NCBI RefSeq assembly: GCF_000011385.1
Contig: NC_005125.1
Span: forward strand, 2,356,001-2,420,000
DNA length: 64,000 nt
DNA from: Gloeobacter violaceus PCC 7421
GTDB taxonomy: Bacteria; Cyanobacteriota; Cyanobacteriia; Gloeobacterales; Gloeobacteraceae
Direction: 5' to 3'
The stretch's first letter is position 1, and every line of letters starts with the position of its first letter. The position numbers and the translations under genes are program-made. Below, piece by piece: positions 26,332 to 31,316 of the stretch. The notes under the pieces are model-generated. The model did not search any database. It worked only from the letters and a program-made list of their open reading frames with translations, and was not told the DNA's origin.

Positions 26332-28188
26332 TCATTTGCTGCCGAACCGCCCATCGTCTCGTGGGACAGCTTCGGCCTGGCAACTCAACTGCCCCCTGTC
26401 GCTGTCGTAAATCACCAAAATGCGCAACTGCCGCTCGCTCGCCCCCGGCCAGGCGGGCCACCCCACGCCCTCCAGTGCCGTGAGCGCCGCGAGCAAGGCA
26501 CCGTCGAGTGCCGGACCACCCGAGACAACCGTGCGAGGAGGTTGCACCAAGCGCGTGCCCTTCACTCCGGCAATAAGCGTAATTTCCAGCACCGCCGGCT
26601 GCGCAGCGCCGGGCGGCCAGTGGCCGGCCACCTGCAAAGCCTGACAGAGGTCGCGGCCGTAGGCAGCCACAACGGCTGCTGCACCGCTGCGGCTGCTTCG
26701 GAGGATCTGTTCTTGCGGGGCAGGCAGCGTTTGCGGATGGGCGGCTCCTGCCGAACCGGCGGGAATGCCGGTGTCGGCGGGCGGCTTGCCGGCCAGTATG
26801 TTAGGGGTCGGGGTGGGGACGGGCACCGTTTGCGGCAGTGCAGGCGTCGAAGCTGGCTGAGATACGGGCGGAGCTTTCTGTGGCCGGTCGGTCCCACCCA
26901 AGCCGCGCGACGGCCGAGCGGGACCAGCCGCTTTGCGCGACGGTGCCTCGACTGTTCTAACTGTCGGCTGCGGCACGCCGGAAGCTGGAGTCGACCCGGG
27001 AGACCGATGGGAAGCGGACGAACGTTCGGGCGGCCGGGCGACCAGTAGTTTGGAGGGTGGCGGTACTGGTGCTCCTGGCGGCCGCACAATTGCCAGGGTG
27101 ACCATCGCCGCCACCGCCACCGCCGCCGTGGACAGCATCAGCATCAGCGACAACGGCGGGGGAGGGGACGGCAGTGCCATTAGATGGGTCCACAATCGTT
27201 CCTCTTCGGCGTCCGGTTCCACCGGCGGTCCCGCGCTTGCCCCTGTCCACCCGCTGCTGGAGAGCAGCCGGGGCACATTCTGGGACAGCCGCTCCAGCTG
27301 CGCCTCGCAGCCGGCTTTGGGCCTGTCGGCAACCCGTTCGTGCAAAGCGGCACAAAAGCCGGTGCCGTCGCACTCCTCGAGAAACTGAGCCCCCAACACC
27401 CCGGCCAACCGCCGATAAATCTCACCGAGCTTCTGGGAAATGCGCCCCGGCGTGCGTCCCAGGGAGCGGGCTACATCCTGTTTGGCTTCCCCCCGCAGAT
27501 GGACGCGCTCCAGCAGCAGCTGGTCCGCCTCGCTCAACCCGAGCACCGCCTGCAGGAAGCGCTCCCGACAGTACTCCTCCAACAGTGCTTTTTCTGCGGC
27601 GTTGTCCACCGAACTCAATATCTCCTGCAGAGTAAATGGGTCGTCGTTGTCGGCTCCTGCTCGGGCCGGAGCGTCGAGCGATTGGGCGCGGGCGATCGCA
27701 AAAGCCTGCCGGTGCTGCCGCAGCCCCATCGCAGTGCTCGGCCTGGATTGTGCCCAGGTGGGGTTGTAACTGCGCTGCAGATCCCGGTAAATCTTCAGGA
27801 ACACGTGCTTGGCCAACCAGGTGGAAAAGCTCGCCAGGCGCGGATCGAATTGGGGCAGGCGCTCGTGCACCAGCAGCAACACTTCTTCTGCGAAGACTTC
27901 TGCCTCGAAACCGGGCTCGGCACCCTGGGTCCGGCGACCACTGCAGTAAGCGCGGCAGACTTCGCGCAGCAGCCGGTGGAAACGGGGGAGACCTGCCTGG
28001 CGCATCTGCCGCTCCAGTTGGTGCAGCTGCTCGGCCCGCTGCTGCTCATCGAGCAGCATGTCGCGGCGTAGCTGGTGCCATTGCTGCAATACCGGCTGCA
28101 GCTGCAGCGTCAGTTCTTCCAACACCTCCGCTCTGGACCGCCAGCGCAACCGCGCCACCGGGGACGCAGCGGGACTTTCGTTCGGCAT
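26332..28188 (-). CDS. ECF-type sigma factor fused to a membrane segment and TonB-C-like domain
   Basis: The start is ATG 28188 (MPNESPAASP, 618 residues), because the longer frame runs through low-GC spacer and the CHAT gene. Residues 95-145 resemble sigma region 2 (FDPRLASFSTWLAKHVFLKI). Residues 205-262 are a region-4 helix-turn-helix (GLSEADQLLLERVHLRGEAK, DVARSLGRTPGRISQKLGE). A single membrane helix spans about 346-368, then a 110-residue Pro-rich stretch. The C-terminal domain (LEITLIAGVKGTRLVQPP, ALDGALLAALTALEGVGWP) is TonB-C-like. This implies a membrane-tethered sigma factor with a periplasmic sensing or binding end. It follows the TPR-CHAT gene by 98 bases. Confidence 0.7.
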   Translation of the reverse strand: MPNESPAASPVARLRWRSRAEVLEELTLQLQPVLQQWHQLRRDMLLDEQQRAEQLHQLERQMRQAGLPRFHRLLREVCRAYCSGRRTQGAEPGFEAEVFAEEVLLLVHERLPQFDPRLASFSTWLAKHVFLKIYRDLQRSYNPTWAQSRPSTAMGLRQHRQAFAIARAQSLDAPARAGADNDDPFTLQEILSSVDNAAEKALLEEYCRERFLQAVLGLSEADQLLLERVHLRGEAKQDVARSLGRTPGRISQKLGEIYRRLAGVLGAQFLEECDGTGFCAALHERVADRPKAGCEAQLERLSQNVPRLLSSSGWTGASAGPPVEPDAEEERLWTHLMALPSPPPPLSLMLMLSTAAVAVAAMVTLAIVRPPGAPVPPPSKLLVARPPERSSASHRSPGSTPASGVPQPTVRTVEAPSRKAAGPARPSRGLGGTDRPQKAPPVSQPASTPALPQTVPVPTPTPNILAGKPPADTGIPAGSAGAAHPQTLPAPQEQILRSSRSGAAAVVAAYGRDLCQALQVAGHWPPGAAQPAVLEITLIAGVKGTRLVQPPRTVVSGGPALDGALLAALTALEGVGWPAWPGASERQLRILVIYDSDRGQLSCQAEAVPRDDGRFGSK

Positions 28189-28286
28189 TGCAAAACCCGT
28201 AATTTCTATGGCAGCTATCGGTTCATAGGGAACATATCCCAAAGCGCCAGCATTTTTAGGGCGCCAGCCGGTGCCCATCCAAAGAT

Positions 28287-31200
28287 TTAACGGGGGTAGT
28301 CTCCGTTCAGTGCAAGAGGCCGCCGGTCGCCGGTCGCGACAAACGCCGCCCACCAGTAGGGATGGGCACGTTCGCCCCCTTGCAACAGATCCAACTGCAC
28401 CCGCCGCAGCGCTTCGCTGCGGCCCCAGCCCGCCAATAGCTGCCGGTAATACGCGACCATCAGTTGCGCGGTGGCCGTGTCGCCGACTTGCCACAGACTG
28501 AACATTTGGCTTCTGGCCCCGGCGATGGACAGTGCGCGCCTCAGACCGTAGATCCCCTCGCCGCCGGCCACCTCTCCCAGCCCCGTGTCGCAGGCGGACA
28601 GCACTACCAGTTCGGTGCCCTCCAAGTCGAGGCCCATCGCCTCCAGCGCCGTGAGCACCCCGTCTTCGCCGCCGCTGGCGCGTTTGTTGAACCCGGCCAG
28701 GGCCAGCCCCGAGCGCAATAACGGGTTCTCGCCCACCCTACTGATGGGTTCGAGAAAAAAGCCGTGGGTGGCCACATGCAGCAGCAGCGGACCGTGGGCC
28801 TCCTTGAGGGCGTTCTCGGTAGCCGCAGCACCGGTGAGCGAGCGGGCGCCGGGCAACAGCGCCAGTAGGGCAGCGGCTTCTTTTGCACTACCCGGCAGCC
28901 CTTCCACACGCAACTCGGCCAGGTCTGCCGAGCGGAGGCTGGGGGCAGAACGGTGGGCGGCGTTCACAGCCGGGGGCCCGGCGTTGTCAAAGTCGGGGGC
29001 GGCAACGAGCAGCGGTCCCTGACGCGGCGGGACCGGTAGGTCGGAAAGCCGGATCAGATCGCGGCCGGAACTCAAGTAAACCAATTCAAAACGCTCCAGC
29101 AGGTAGCGGCCTTGCTCATCCACCAGCGCACCGAACGGCAGCAAGTTCAGCTGGGCGTCGGGGGCAATCCACAGGGTGTGCACATCCCCCAGCCGGGCGC
29201 GCAGCGGCTGCATCAGCAAGCTGTCCAGTTGGCGCGCCAGGGCACGCACGGCGACGACGGGGGTATCTGCGTTGGCCAGCAGAGCACGCAAATCCAGCAC
29301 CATCCGGTCGATCACAGCGGCTTCCGCCAGTTCGACGGCCCAGACCGGGCCGTCGGAGGATAGCAGGAAGGCGGCGTAGTGCTCGGGGGCAAACCGGTCG
29401 GCTTTGCGGGTGGCTGCGGGATTGAGGGGCCGGTAGCGCACCAGTTCGACCAACACGGTGCCGGCGTGCAACTGCTGCTGCACCGCATCGACGGTAACCG
29501 GCCGGGACAGAGTGCCCAACTCGGCGCCACTGGCGGCCAGGTCGGTCTCCAGCTGCCGAGTTTGCCGCTCCAAGGCGTCCAGTCGCGCCTTGTACTGTTC
29601 CGGTGTGTCCTGCTGCAGCCCGCGGAAGACAAGGGTAGCCAGTGTGGAGCGAGTTTGGGCAAGCTGGTCGAGCAGGCCCTGCTGCCCGGGAGCGAGCCGA
29701 GCGCGCAGCTGAGCCAGACCGCCGGTCAACTCGTCGAGCACACGGCTCTTCCTCTGCAGCACGGCTCCCAGGGCCAGCCGGGCGGCTGCAGGCTCTGTGG
29801 GAGCGTAGCGCAGGTGGGCTGAGACACTCAAGTCAACGCCTTCGACAAGGGTGTCTAAGTAATCGCGCTTGCGCGCCTCGTCGCCTACGGCCAGGTTGAG
29901 ACCCAGTAGGCGCTCCTGAACGTCCAGGCGCTCCTGCAGCAGACCAAGGGCCTCCGCTGGCCGCGCTTGCTTCAGCCGCAGGCTGGCGAATGTCTGGAGA
30001 ATACTGACGATTATGGGGTGCTGCAGCCTGAAAGCCTTTTGGTGGATTGCAAGGGCTTGCTCAAGCAGCGGCTCCGCCTCCCGGTAGCGGCCCAAGCTGG
30101 TGTACAGCACAGCCAAACTGTGGAGCACTTGAGCCTCATCGGGGTGCTCCGGACCGAGGGTTTTGTGGTGGATGACCAGAGCGTGCTTGAGAAGCGGTTC
30201 CGCCTCCAGATATTTGCCCTGAGCGACGTGCAGTAAAGCCAGGTTGTTGAGGTTCGCTGCCACCTGGGGGTGATCAGGACCGAGGACTTTTTGGTGAATG
30301 GCCAGGGCCCGCTCGTACAGCGGCTCCGCCTCCCGGTAGCGGCCCTGATCGACGTACAGAAAAGCCAGGTTGTTGAGCTTCACTGCCACATCAGGGTGAT
30401 CAGGACCGAGGACTTTTTGGTGAATGGCCAGGGCCCTCTCGTACAGCGGCTCCGCCTCCCGGTAGCGGCCCTGCTTTGTCTGCAAAATAGCCAGGTTGTT
30501 GAGGGTTTTGGCCACCTGGGGGTGATCAGGACCGAGGACTTTTTGGTGAATGGCCAGGGCCCGCTCGTACAGCGGCTCCGCCTCCCGGTAGCGGCCCTGA
30601 TCGACGTACAGTAAAGCCAGGTTGTTGAGGGTTTTGGCCACCTCGGGGTGCTCAGGACCGAGGACTTTTTGGTGAATGGCCAGGATCCTCTCGTACAGCG
30701 GCTCCGCCTCCCGGTAGCGGCCCTGCTTTCTAAAGAGGGCAGCCAGGTTGATGAGGGTTTTTGCCACCTCGGGGTGCTCAGGACCGAAGACCTGTTCGCG
30801 GATGGCCAGGGCCCGCTCGTACAGCGGCTCTGCCTCCCGGTAGCGGCCCTGCTTTGCCTGCAAGGCAGCCAGGTTGTTGAGGCTTGCGGCCACACTGGGG
30901 TGCTTCGAGCCGAAGACTTTTTGGCGAATGGCCAGGGCCCGCTCATACAGAAGCTCCGATCGCCCGTAATCCCCCCGATCCGCAAGCAGGTTTCCGAGGT
31001 GGTTGAGGCTCGCGGCCACATCGGGATTTTCCGGTCCCAGCAGGCGCTCGCGAACCGCCATGGCCTGCTCAGCCGGTTCAAGCGCTTGCGCGTAGTCTCC
31101 CTGCTGCCACAACTGCAAGCTCCGTTGGTGCAACCGCTCGGCCTCCGCCAGATCTCCGGCTATCGGTGCCGCCGCGGACGCGGGAGCGATCAGGGGCCAG

Positions 31201-31316
31201 GCAGTAGATAGGCACAATCCCAGCGCCAACGCCAGATTGAAGACATGCACCCACCGACAGGCAAACAAATTGGACAAGTGTAGCTCTATTTCGCAAACAA
31301 TGTGCGGTCTCATCAT
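28287..31316 (-). CDS. exported TPR-CHAT protein
   Basis: 1009 residues. A hydrophobic stretch ending LIAPASAAA (about 25-49) is a signal peptide or anchor; a GTG at 31247 is an alternative start. About nine 42-residue kinesin-light-chain-type TPRs follow (repeat unit GRYREAEPLYERALAIHQKV), then a helical linker. The CHAT domain has the catalytic His in LLHVATHGFFLEP (near 845) and Cys in VVLSACDTGLGEVAGGEGI (near 908), ending in HPYWWAAFVATGD. CHAT domains are caspase-like peptidases; the TPRs would bind a protein partner. It is paired with the sigma-factor fusion downstream, so processing or control of that protein is an attractive but unproven role. Confidence 0.9.
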   Translation of the reverse strand: MMRPHIVCEIELHLSNLFACRWVHVFNLALALGLCLSTAWPLIAPASAAAPIAGDLAEAERLHQRSLQLWQQGDYAQALEPAEQAMAVRERLLGPENPDVAASLNHLGNLLADRGDYGRSELLYERALAIRQKVFGSKHPSVAASLNNLAALQAKQGRYREAEPLYERALAIREQVFGPEHPEVAKTLINLAALFRKQGRYREAEPLYERILAIHQKVLGPEHPEVAKTLNNLALLYVDQGRYREAEPLYERALAIHQKVLGPDHPQVAKTLNNLAILQTKQGRYREAEPLYERALAIHQKVLGPDHPDVAVKLNNLAFLYVDQGRYREAEPLYERALAIHQKVLGPDHPQVAANLNNLALLHVAQGKYLEAEPLLKHALVIHHKTLGPEHPDEAQVLHSLAVLYTSLGRYREAEPLLEQALAIHQKAFRLQHPIIVSILQTFASLRLKQARPAEALGLLQERLDVQERLLGLNLAVGDEARKRDYLDTLVEGVDLSVSAHLRYAPTEPAAARLALGAVLQRKSRVLDELTGGLAQLRARLAPGQQGLLDQLAQTRSTLATLVFRGLQQDTPEQYKARLDALERQTRQLETDLAASGAELGTLSRPVTVDAVQQQLHAGTVLVELVRYRPLNPAATRKADRFAPEHYAAFLLSSDGPVWAVELAEAAVIDRMVLDLRALLANADTPVVAVRALARQLDSLLMQPLRARLGDVHTLWIAPDAQLNLLPFGALVDEQGRYLLERFELVYLSSGRDLIRLSDLPVPPRQGPLLVAAPDFDNAGPPAVNAAHRSAPSLRSADLAELRVEGLPGSAKEAAALLALLPGARSLTGAAATENALKEAHGPLLLHVATHGFFLEPISRVGENPLLRSGLALAGFNKRASGGEDGVLTALEAMGLDLEGTELVVLSACDTGLGEVAGGEGIYGLRRALSIAGARSQMFSLWQVGDTATAQLMVAYYRQLLAGWGRSEALRRVQLDLLQGGERAHPYWWAAFVATGDRRPLALNGDYPR
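30250..31000 (-). repeat. tandem 126-bp repeats encoding TPRs
   Basis: Six to seven consecutive 126-bp units inside the TPR-CHAT gene are nearly identical at the DNA level, sharing GGCTCCGCCTCCCGGTAGCG and TTTTTGGTGAATGGCCAGG with few changes. Such near-identity suggests recent unit duplication or gene conversion, so copy number may vary between strains. Confidence 0.9.

Follow-up and report, generated by a model that had tools for sequence, protein, structure and literature searches.

A family of ECF-type sigma factors, many of them membrane-anchored, often paired with TPR-CHAT genes in the Gloeobacterales

The genome of Gloeobacter violaceus PCC 7421, a single contig of 4,659,019 bp, encodes a membrane-anchored sigma factor whose gene lies beside that of a TPR-CHAT protein with a predicted export signal, and this pairing recurs among the Gloeobacterales. 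The sigma protein combines a well-supported sigma region 4 and a weakly matched region 2 with a single membrane helix, a stalk rich in proline and an end that resembles TolA-III and TonB-CTD, and as a CHAT-paired, membrane-anchored sigma factor it is a new variant among the fused ECF sigma factors already known. We favor a reading in which an ECF sigma factor is fused to its own anti-sigma module, with the exported CHAT protein as its dedicated partner and first protease and with release by a site-2 protease; as a whole, this model is tentative, and we would place its probability at roughly 40%.

The two proteins of the window pair

The window analyzed, a stretch of 64,000 nucleotides from contig NC_005125.1, carries both genes on its minus strand, as it does all of the features described below. 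The TPR-CHAT gene (28287..31316) is an open reading frame of 1009 codons with matches to PF13424 (TPR_12) and PF12770 (CHAT), and it is followed after 98 bp by the gene for the sigma fusion, a protein of 618 residues (26332..28188), so that the original prediction of a sigma fusion directly downstream of an exported TPR-CHAT protein describes the layout correctly. Translation of the sigma fusion most likely begins at the ATG at 28188, a start that is conserved in relatives, within a longer open frame of 720 residues.

The sigma fusion belongs to the sigma-70 superfamily and is of the ECF type, and would bind RNA polymerase and direct transcription. A genome search with TIGR02937 gave 46.1 bits against a cut-off of 42.9 that is reached by all five family paralogs of the genome, and the window protein scanned alone scored 42.7 bits over residues 70-262, slightly below that cut-off. 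A sigma protein with regions 2 and 4 had been predicted, and it is region 4 that is well supported. It occupies residues about 200-265 (27394..27591) and is identified by structure matches and by the family profile compared with the PDB; Pfam detects it in 16 of the 19 family members, and the profile of all 19 matches the structures of ECF RpoE, FliA, WhiG and SigL. Two AlphaFold models of the sigma fusion, from three sequences each, are of low confidence (mean pLDDT about 50), with region 4 modeled better (pLDDT up to about 84). Residues ~193-277 of the model align almost exclusively to sigma factors among the 50 matches listed, and the other structure list includes a few RcsB-type helix-turn-helix proteins among its matches. 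The assignment of residues 205-262 to region 4 is thus borne out by the profile and both models, in which residues ~195-270 match this region. Region 2 is placed at residues about 70-136 (27781..27981) within the TIGR02937 match, with profile matches to CnrH/SigE region 2; its PF04542 scores are weak (15-17 bits, below the Pfam cut-off), and region 2 of CnrH and RpoE is weakly matched by the family profile.

The membrane module opens with a conserved LxxLxxxSGW segment at residues about 300-314 (27247..27291), which in family members where sigma and membrane parts are encoded by two genes is the N-terminus of the membrane protein; SGW is invariant in alignments, and of the 17 modules in which the motif was located one has SNW instead. 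A single transmembrane helix follows, as had been foreseen, at residues about 347-368 (27085..27150; hydropathy maximum 2.37; residues 347-366 helical in the model). Residues 369-500 (26689..27084) form a proline-rich stalk of low pLDDT, predicted to be extracytoplasmic, in which prolines account for 25 of the first 100 positions beyond the helix, and residues 501-608 (26365..26688; pLDDT mostly 72-90) form a domain with two conserved cysteines.

Comparison of the model of this end domain with known structures gives Z scores of 9.3 and 8.3 to TolA-III and 7.7 to TonB-CTD, in alignments that cover 89-97 residues at 12-18% identity; these values are near the range that a common arrangement of elements can also produce, and we therefore call the domain TolA/TonB-like rather than a member of either family. 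The earlier description of a TonB-C-like end survives as a statement of resemblance in predicted fold, and the domain is structurally at least as close to TolA-III; Pfam TonB_C (PF03544) does not match the sigma fusions, either among genome matches down to an E value of 1 or in the protein scan. Pfam likewise finds no zinc-finger anti-sigma domain in the sigma fusion. Each of the 14 aligned modules that have the domain retains both cysteines, as expected for an oxidizing compartment.

The TPR-CHAT protein begins with what looks, by hydropathy, like a Sec-type signal peptide (residues 1-49; 31170..31316), a hydrophobic segment followed by APASAAA in a start region conserved in two relatives. 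Residues about 51-470 (29907..31166) form a TPR region of the kinesin-light-chain type (TPR_12, 490 bits), for which kinesin light chains are the best PDB sequence matches, and residues 692-997 (28326..29243) form the CHAT domain (PF12770, 303 bits). Its catalytic dyad is intact, with His851 in HVATHG (847-852) and Cys909 in SACDTG (907-912); the protein is a CHAT peptidase by domain and dyad, and proteolytic activity is predicted. A hydrophobic leader compatible with export is present in every family-adjacent CHAT protein with a readable N-terminus, as judged by hydropathy and by eye; the CHAT protein of locus L088 was left out of this reading, as its open reading frame as called starts too far upstream. 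The CHAT domain and the TolA/TonB-like domain are both predicted to be extracytoplasmic, in line with the proposal that they lie on one side of the membrane.

These features could also be read mechanically, with the sigma factor released or opened by a mechanical or contact signal through the TolA/TonB-like domain and with the CHAT protein acting as a non-proteolytic scaffold or as a TPR partner that binds the stalk. A helix, a proline-rich stalk and a TolA/TonB-like end do resemble the build of periplasm-spanning proteins, and TPRs of the kinesin-light-chain type, which bind peptides, would suit such a partner. Against this, the His and Cys motifs are present in every family-adjacent CHAT protein that we read, a conservation that points to an active enzyme, and we regard this reading as quite unlikely.

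Distribution of the family and recurrence of the pair

A search profile built from five paralogs identified 19 strong family loci, all of them in Gloeobacterales and distributed over six of the nine genomes of the order; about 280 genomes of other cyanobacteria yielded no strong or close match. The full-length sigma fusion searched against about 290 cyanobacterial genomes gave only weak matches beyond its own genome. A scan of genome contigs gave two loci, both from Gloeobacterales (one in a MAG labeled Aphanocapsa lilacina, the other in a Gloeobacterales MAG), and a scan of viral contigs for the sigma family found none.

At ten of the 19 loci the sigma factor and its membrane extension form a single chain, and at the other nine the sigma part stands alone; the fused loci represent five ortholog groups, and the independent count is therefore small. 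At eight of the nine split loci the end of the sigma gene is overlapped or directly adjoined by a distinct gene for a membrane module of the kind found in the fusions; none was identified at the ninth, L090, which lies on a contig of 4.7 kb. The membrane proteins of four of the split loci (L021, L084, L087 and L089) have C-terminal ends unlike the TolA/TonB-like type. This layout of the split forms is reminiscent of operons that encode a sigma factor and its anti-sigma factor, and we accordingly interpret the fusion as a sigma factor carrying a membrane anti-sigma module in the same chain, whose extension would be inhibitory. It had been suggested that a tethered sigma factor here replaces the usual anti-sigma cascade; the tether is upheld, and the split versions point to a fused anti-sigma module rather than to a clear alternative.

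Of the 19 loci, 13 have a TPR-CHAT gene no more than about 4 kb away, including all ten that are fused, so that within the order the two genes are not rare neighbors. Their arrangement varies. The CHAT gene is upstream on the same strand in the window and at L082 and L083, and downstream of the sigma gene at L019 (with a 4-bp overlap), L080 (16 bp apart), L086 and L088 (directly downstream); the pair is divergent at L091 and convergent at L085, and other genes intervene at L018, L021 and L084. An intervening gene at L018 encodes a GDSL lipase, and at L021 (3679-5806) two exported FG-GAP repeat proteins lie between a divergent split sigma pair and the TPR-CHAT gene, an arrangement conserved at L084.

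In three complete genomes, a CHAT domain is encoded within 7 kb of 11 of the 14 family members, compared with 3 of the 68 sigma genes outside the family, the expectation being 0.28; the small binomial figure for this comparison overstates its significance through the separate entry of orthologs, and one of the three other sigma genes (G294 390380) is a mere neighbor of the L091 pair. In G. violaceus alone, four of the five family members are near a CHAT gene. Conversely, no CHAT gene adjoins six of the split loci, two of which are on contigs that are short or cut, and the sigma module can therefore probably work without CHAT; the same genomes contain some groups of CHAT genes with no nearby sigma gene of the membrane-module family. 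Co-occurrence across cyanobacteria, which the original prediction offered as a check, thus holds across the Gloeobacterales; no strong family match was found outside that order, and the pairing is not one shared by cyanobacteria in general. One of the split sigma pairs without a CHAT gene (L020, 34-6925) adjoins two large neighboring genes that read as psaA- and psaB-like, the second of which ends in an extra stretch resembling an OmpA-type domain.

The genes might be neighbors simply through common descent of a duplicated block, with no functional link between them. The loci are indeed paralogs inside one order and comprise few independent ortholog groups, but the pairing is present at all fused loci and in several ortholog groups despite changes of gene order, orientation and spacing. 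Moreover, the sigma and CHAT trees agree inside ortholog groups and disagree elsewhere (the L086 sigma factor clusters with the CHAT-less L020 set, and the L086 CHAT protein with those of L018 and L019), and this partial incongruence makes it unlikely that the link is one inherited block. We consider shared descent alone very unlikely to account for the pairing.

A stronger competitor places the TPR-CHAT gene under the control of the sigma factor, as its target or effector and not its regulator: the tethered sigma factor would sense the envelope through its TolA/TonB-like domain, be freed by ordinary proteases and turn on the adjoining gene for the exported protease. ECF sigma genes often adjoin their targets, and the variable orientation and distance of the pair, the exported-protein genes that intervene (GDSL lipase at L018, FG-GAP at L021) and the existence of split sigma systems without CHAT all suit this explanation. 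Aligned upstream regions, however, contain conserved blocks inside ortholog groups, with none seen in common between groups, and visual inspection revealed no promoter motif that CHAT and sigma genes share. The tight spacing at L019 and L080, where the CHAT gene overlaps the sigma gene by 4 bp or starts 16 bp behind it, fits co-expressed partners, but autoregulation would give the same arrangement, which is therefore weak evidence against a target role. On balance we judge it rather unlikely that the CHAT gene is a target or effector instead of a regulator.

A proposed pathway for release of the sigma factor

Under the favored model of a sigma/anti-sigma fusion with a CHAT partner, the SGW-bearing cytoplasmic segment and the membrane anchor would hold the sigma factor inactive at the membrane, while the proline-rich stalk would place the TolA/TonB-like domain in the periplasm, where it could report on the envelope or on a partner protein. 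The exported TPR-CHAT protein, most likely a periplasmic protease, would then make the first cut in the stalk or the C-terminal domain, a site-2 protease would free the sigma factor, and the freed sigma factor would turn on genes for the envelope or for secretion. That the CHAT protein cleaves the sigma fusion is something we infer: an exported peptidase recurs on the side of the membrane to which the stalk and end domain are assigned, and may well act on them. Its TPRs might sense envelope state, as the original prediction proposed. Peptidases of the site-2 type are present in the genome, but such proteases are near-universal and their presence does not discriminate. The more specific proposal that the exported TPR-CHAT protein directly cuts the periplasmic part of the anchored sigma factor and thereby frees it, so that CHAT-sigma control extends beyond CRISPR and the Craspase circuit is a specialized relative or a parallel, is possible though doubtful.

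Known systems and wider CHAT-sigma associations

ECF sigma factors with a C-terminal membrane anti-sigma part are known in groups ECF48, ECF52 (for example SCO4117) and ECF53 and in IutY, a fused sigma/anti-sigma hybrid activated by regulated proteolysis (PMC8999054). Like these, the sigma fusion has a sigma part, with region 2 weakly matched and region 4 well supported, ahead of an extension of inhibitory type with a membrane helix. Unlike these, its periplasmic end is TolA/TonB-CTD-like, with no zinc-finger domain by Pfam; its close members were found only in Gloeobacterales, where split forms occur beside fused ones; and a TPR-CHAT gene is near every fused form that we found. TolA and TonB themselves also have a membrane helix and a stalk that is elongated or rich in proline, and their C-terminal domains resemble its end in predicted fold, but they differ in that here a sigma factor occupies the cytoplasmic side and Pfam TonB_C is unmatched.

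The closest functional parallel is in type III-E CRISPR, in which the TPR-CHAT protease Csx29 cleaves an inhibitor of an ECF sigma factor and so relieves the sigma factor (PMC10028731). As in Craspase (Csx29, Csx30 and CASP-sigma), a TPR-CHAT gene is genetically linked here to a sigma factor of the ECF type together with its putative inhibitor; unlike in Craspase, the CHAT protein has an export signal and the sigma factor is covalently joined to a membrane module. Csx29 works in complex with Cas7-11, and no CRISPR genes, Cas7-11 included, were seen among the open reading frames listed around the window pair. A search of one literature library found no paper linking CHAT proteins to sigma factors outside type III-E CRISPR.

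Sigma factors of a different kind are also found near CHAT genes. In eight other cyanobacterial genomes a CHAT gene lies beside at least 4 of 76 ordinary sigma genes among the matches listed, compared with 2.4 expected. Operons of a long sigma factor with a DUF1822 gene are widespread in cyanobacteria and likewise place a dedicated sigma factor beside a fixed partner, with an exported CHAT protein adjoining some of them; they differ from the present family in having another, longer sigma factor, no membrane fusion and a CHAT gene at a minority of loci. Both the long sigma factor and DUF1822 are present in 18 of 20 regions, and a CHAT gene is present in four by a second profile and in one further region (G089) by position. 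CHAT is therefore not a constant partner there, and we rejected these operons as the general form of the pairing. Together these associations hint that CHAT-sigma links arose more than once, the enrichment being weak.

Several individual clusters illustrate the variety of these regions. In G. violaceus, genes for a CHAT protein, DUF928, an nSTAND/WD40 protein, DUF1822 and a long sigma factor lie on one strand (L022, 3859318-3870775), and in another cyanobacterium a serpin, an exported CHAT protein without TPRs, a long sigma factor and DUF1822 are encoded in a row (L107, 1900-7486), where the serpin is possibly an inhibitor associated with the peptidase. Elsewhere in G. violaceus (L161, 2257-3456; about 1308092-1309455), a sigma gene is followed by one for a single-helix protein of ~200 residues that carries the motif LERELPRLL and whose short C-terminal region matches TonB_C very weakly; this is probably a further pair of a sigma factor and a membrane anti-sigma protein, and sigma matches as strong as that of L161 occur in four related genomes.

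CHAT proteins are carried by 16 of the 18 cyanobacterial genomes sampled, in up to 38 copies, and the recurrent pairing of an exported TPR-CHAT protein with an anchored sigma factor offers for them a specific candidate substrate and a pathway that can be put to the test. Fused ECF sigma factors would thereby gain a caspase-like protease of the periplasm among their inputs, and the pairing could also help to explain the origin of the CHAT-sigma link in Craspase.
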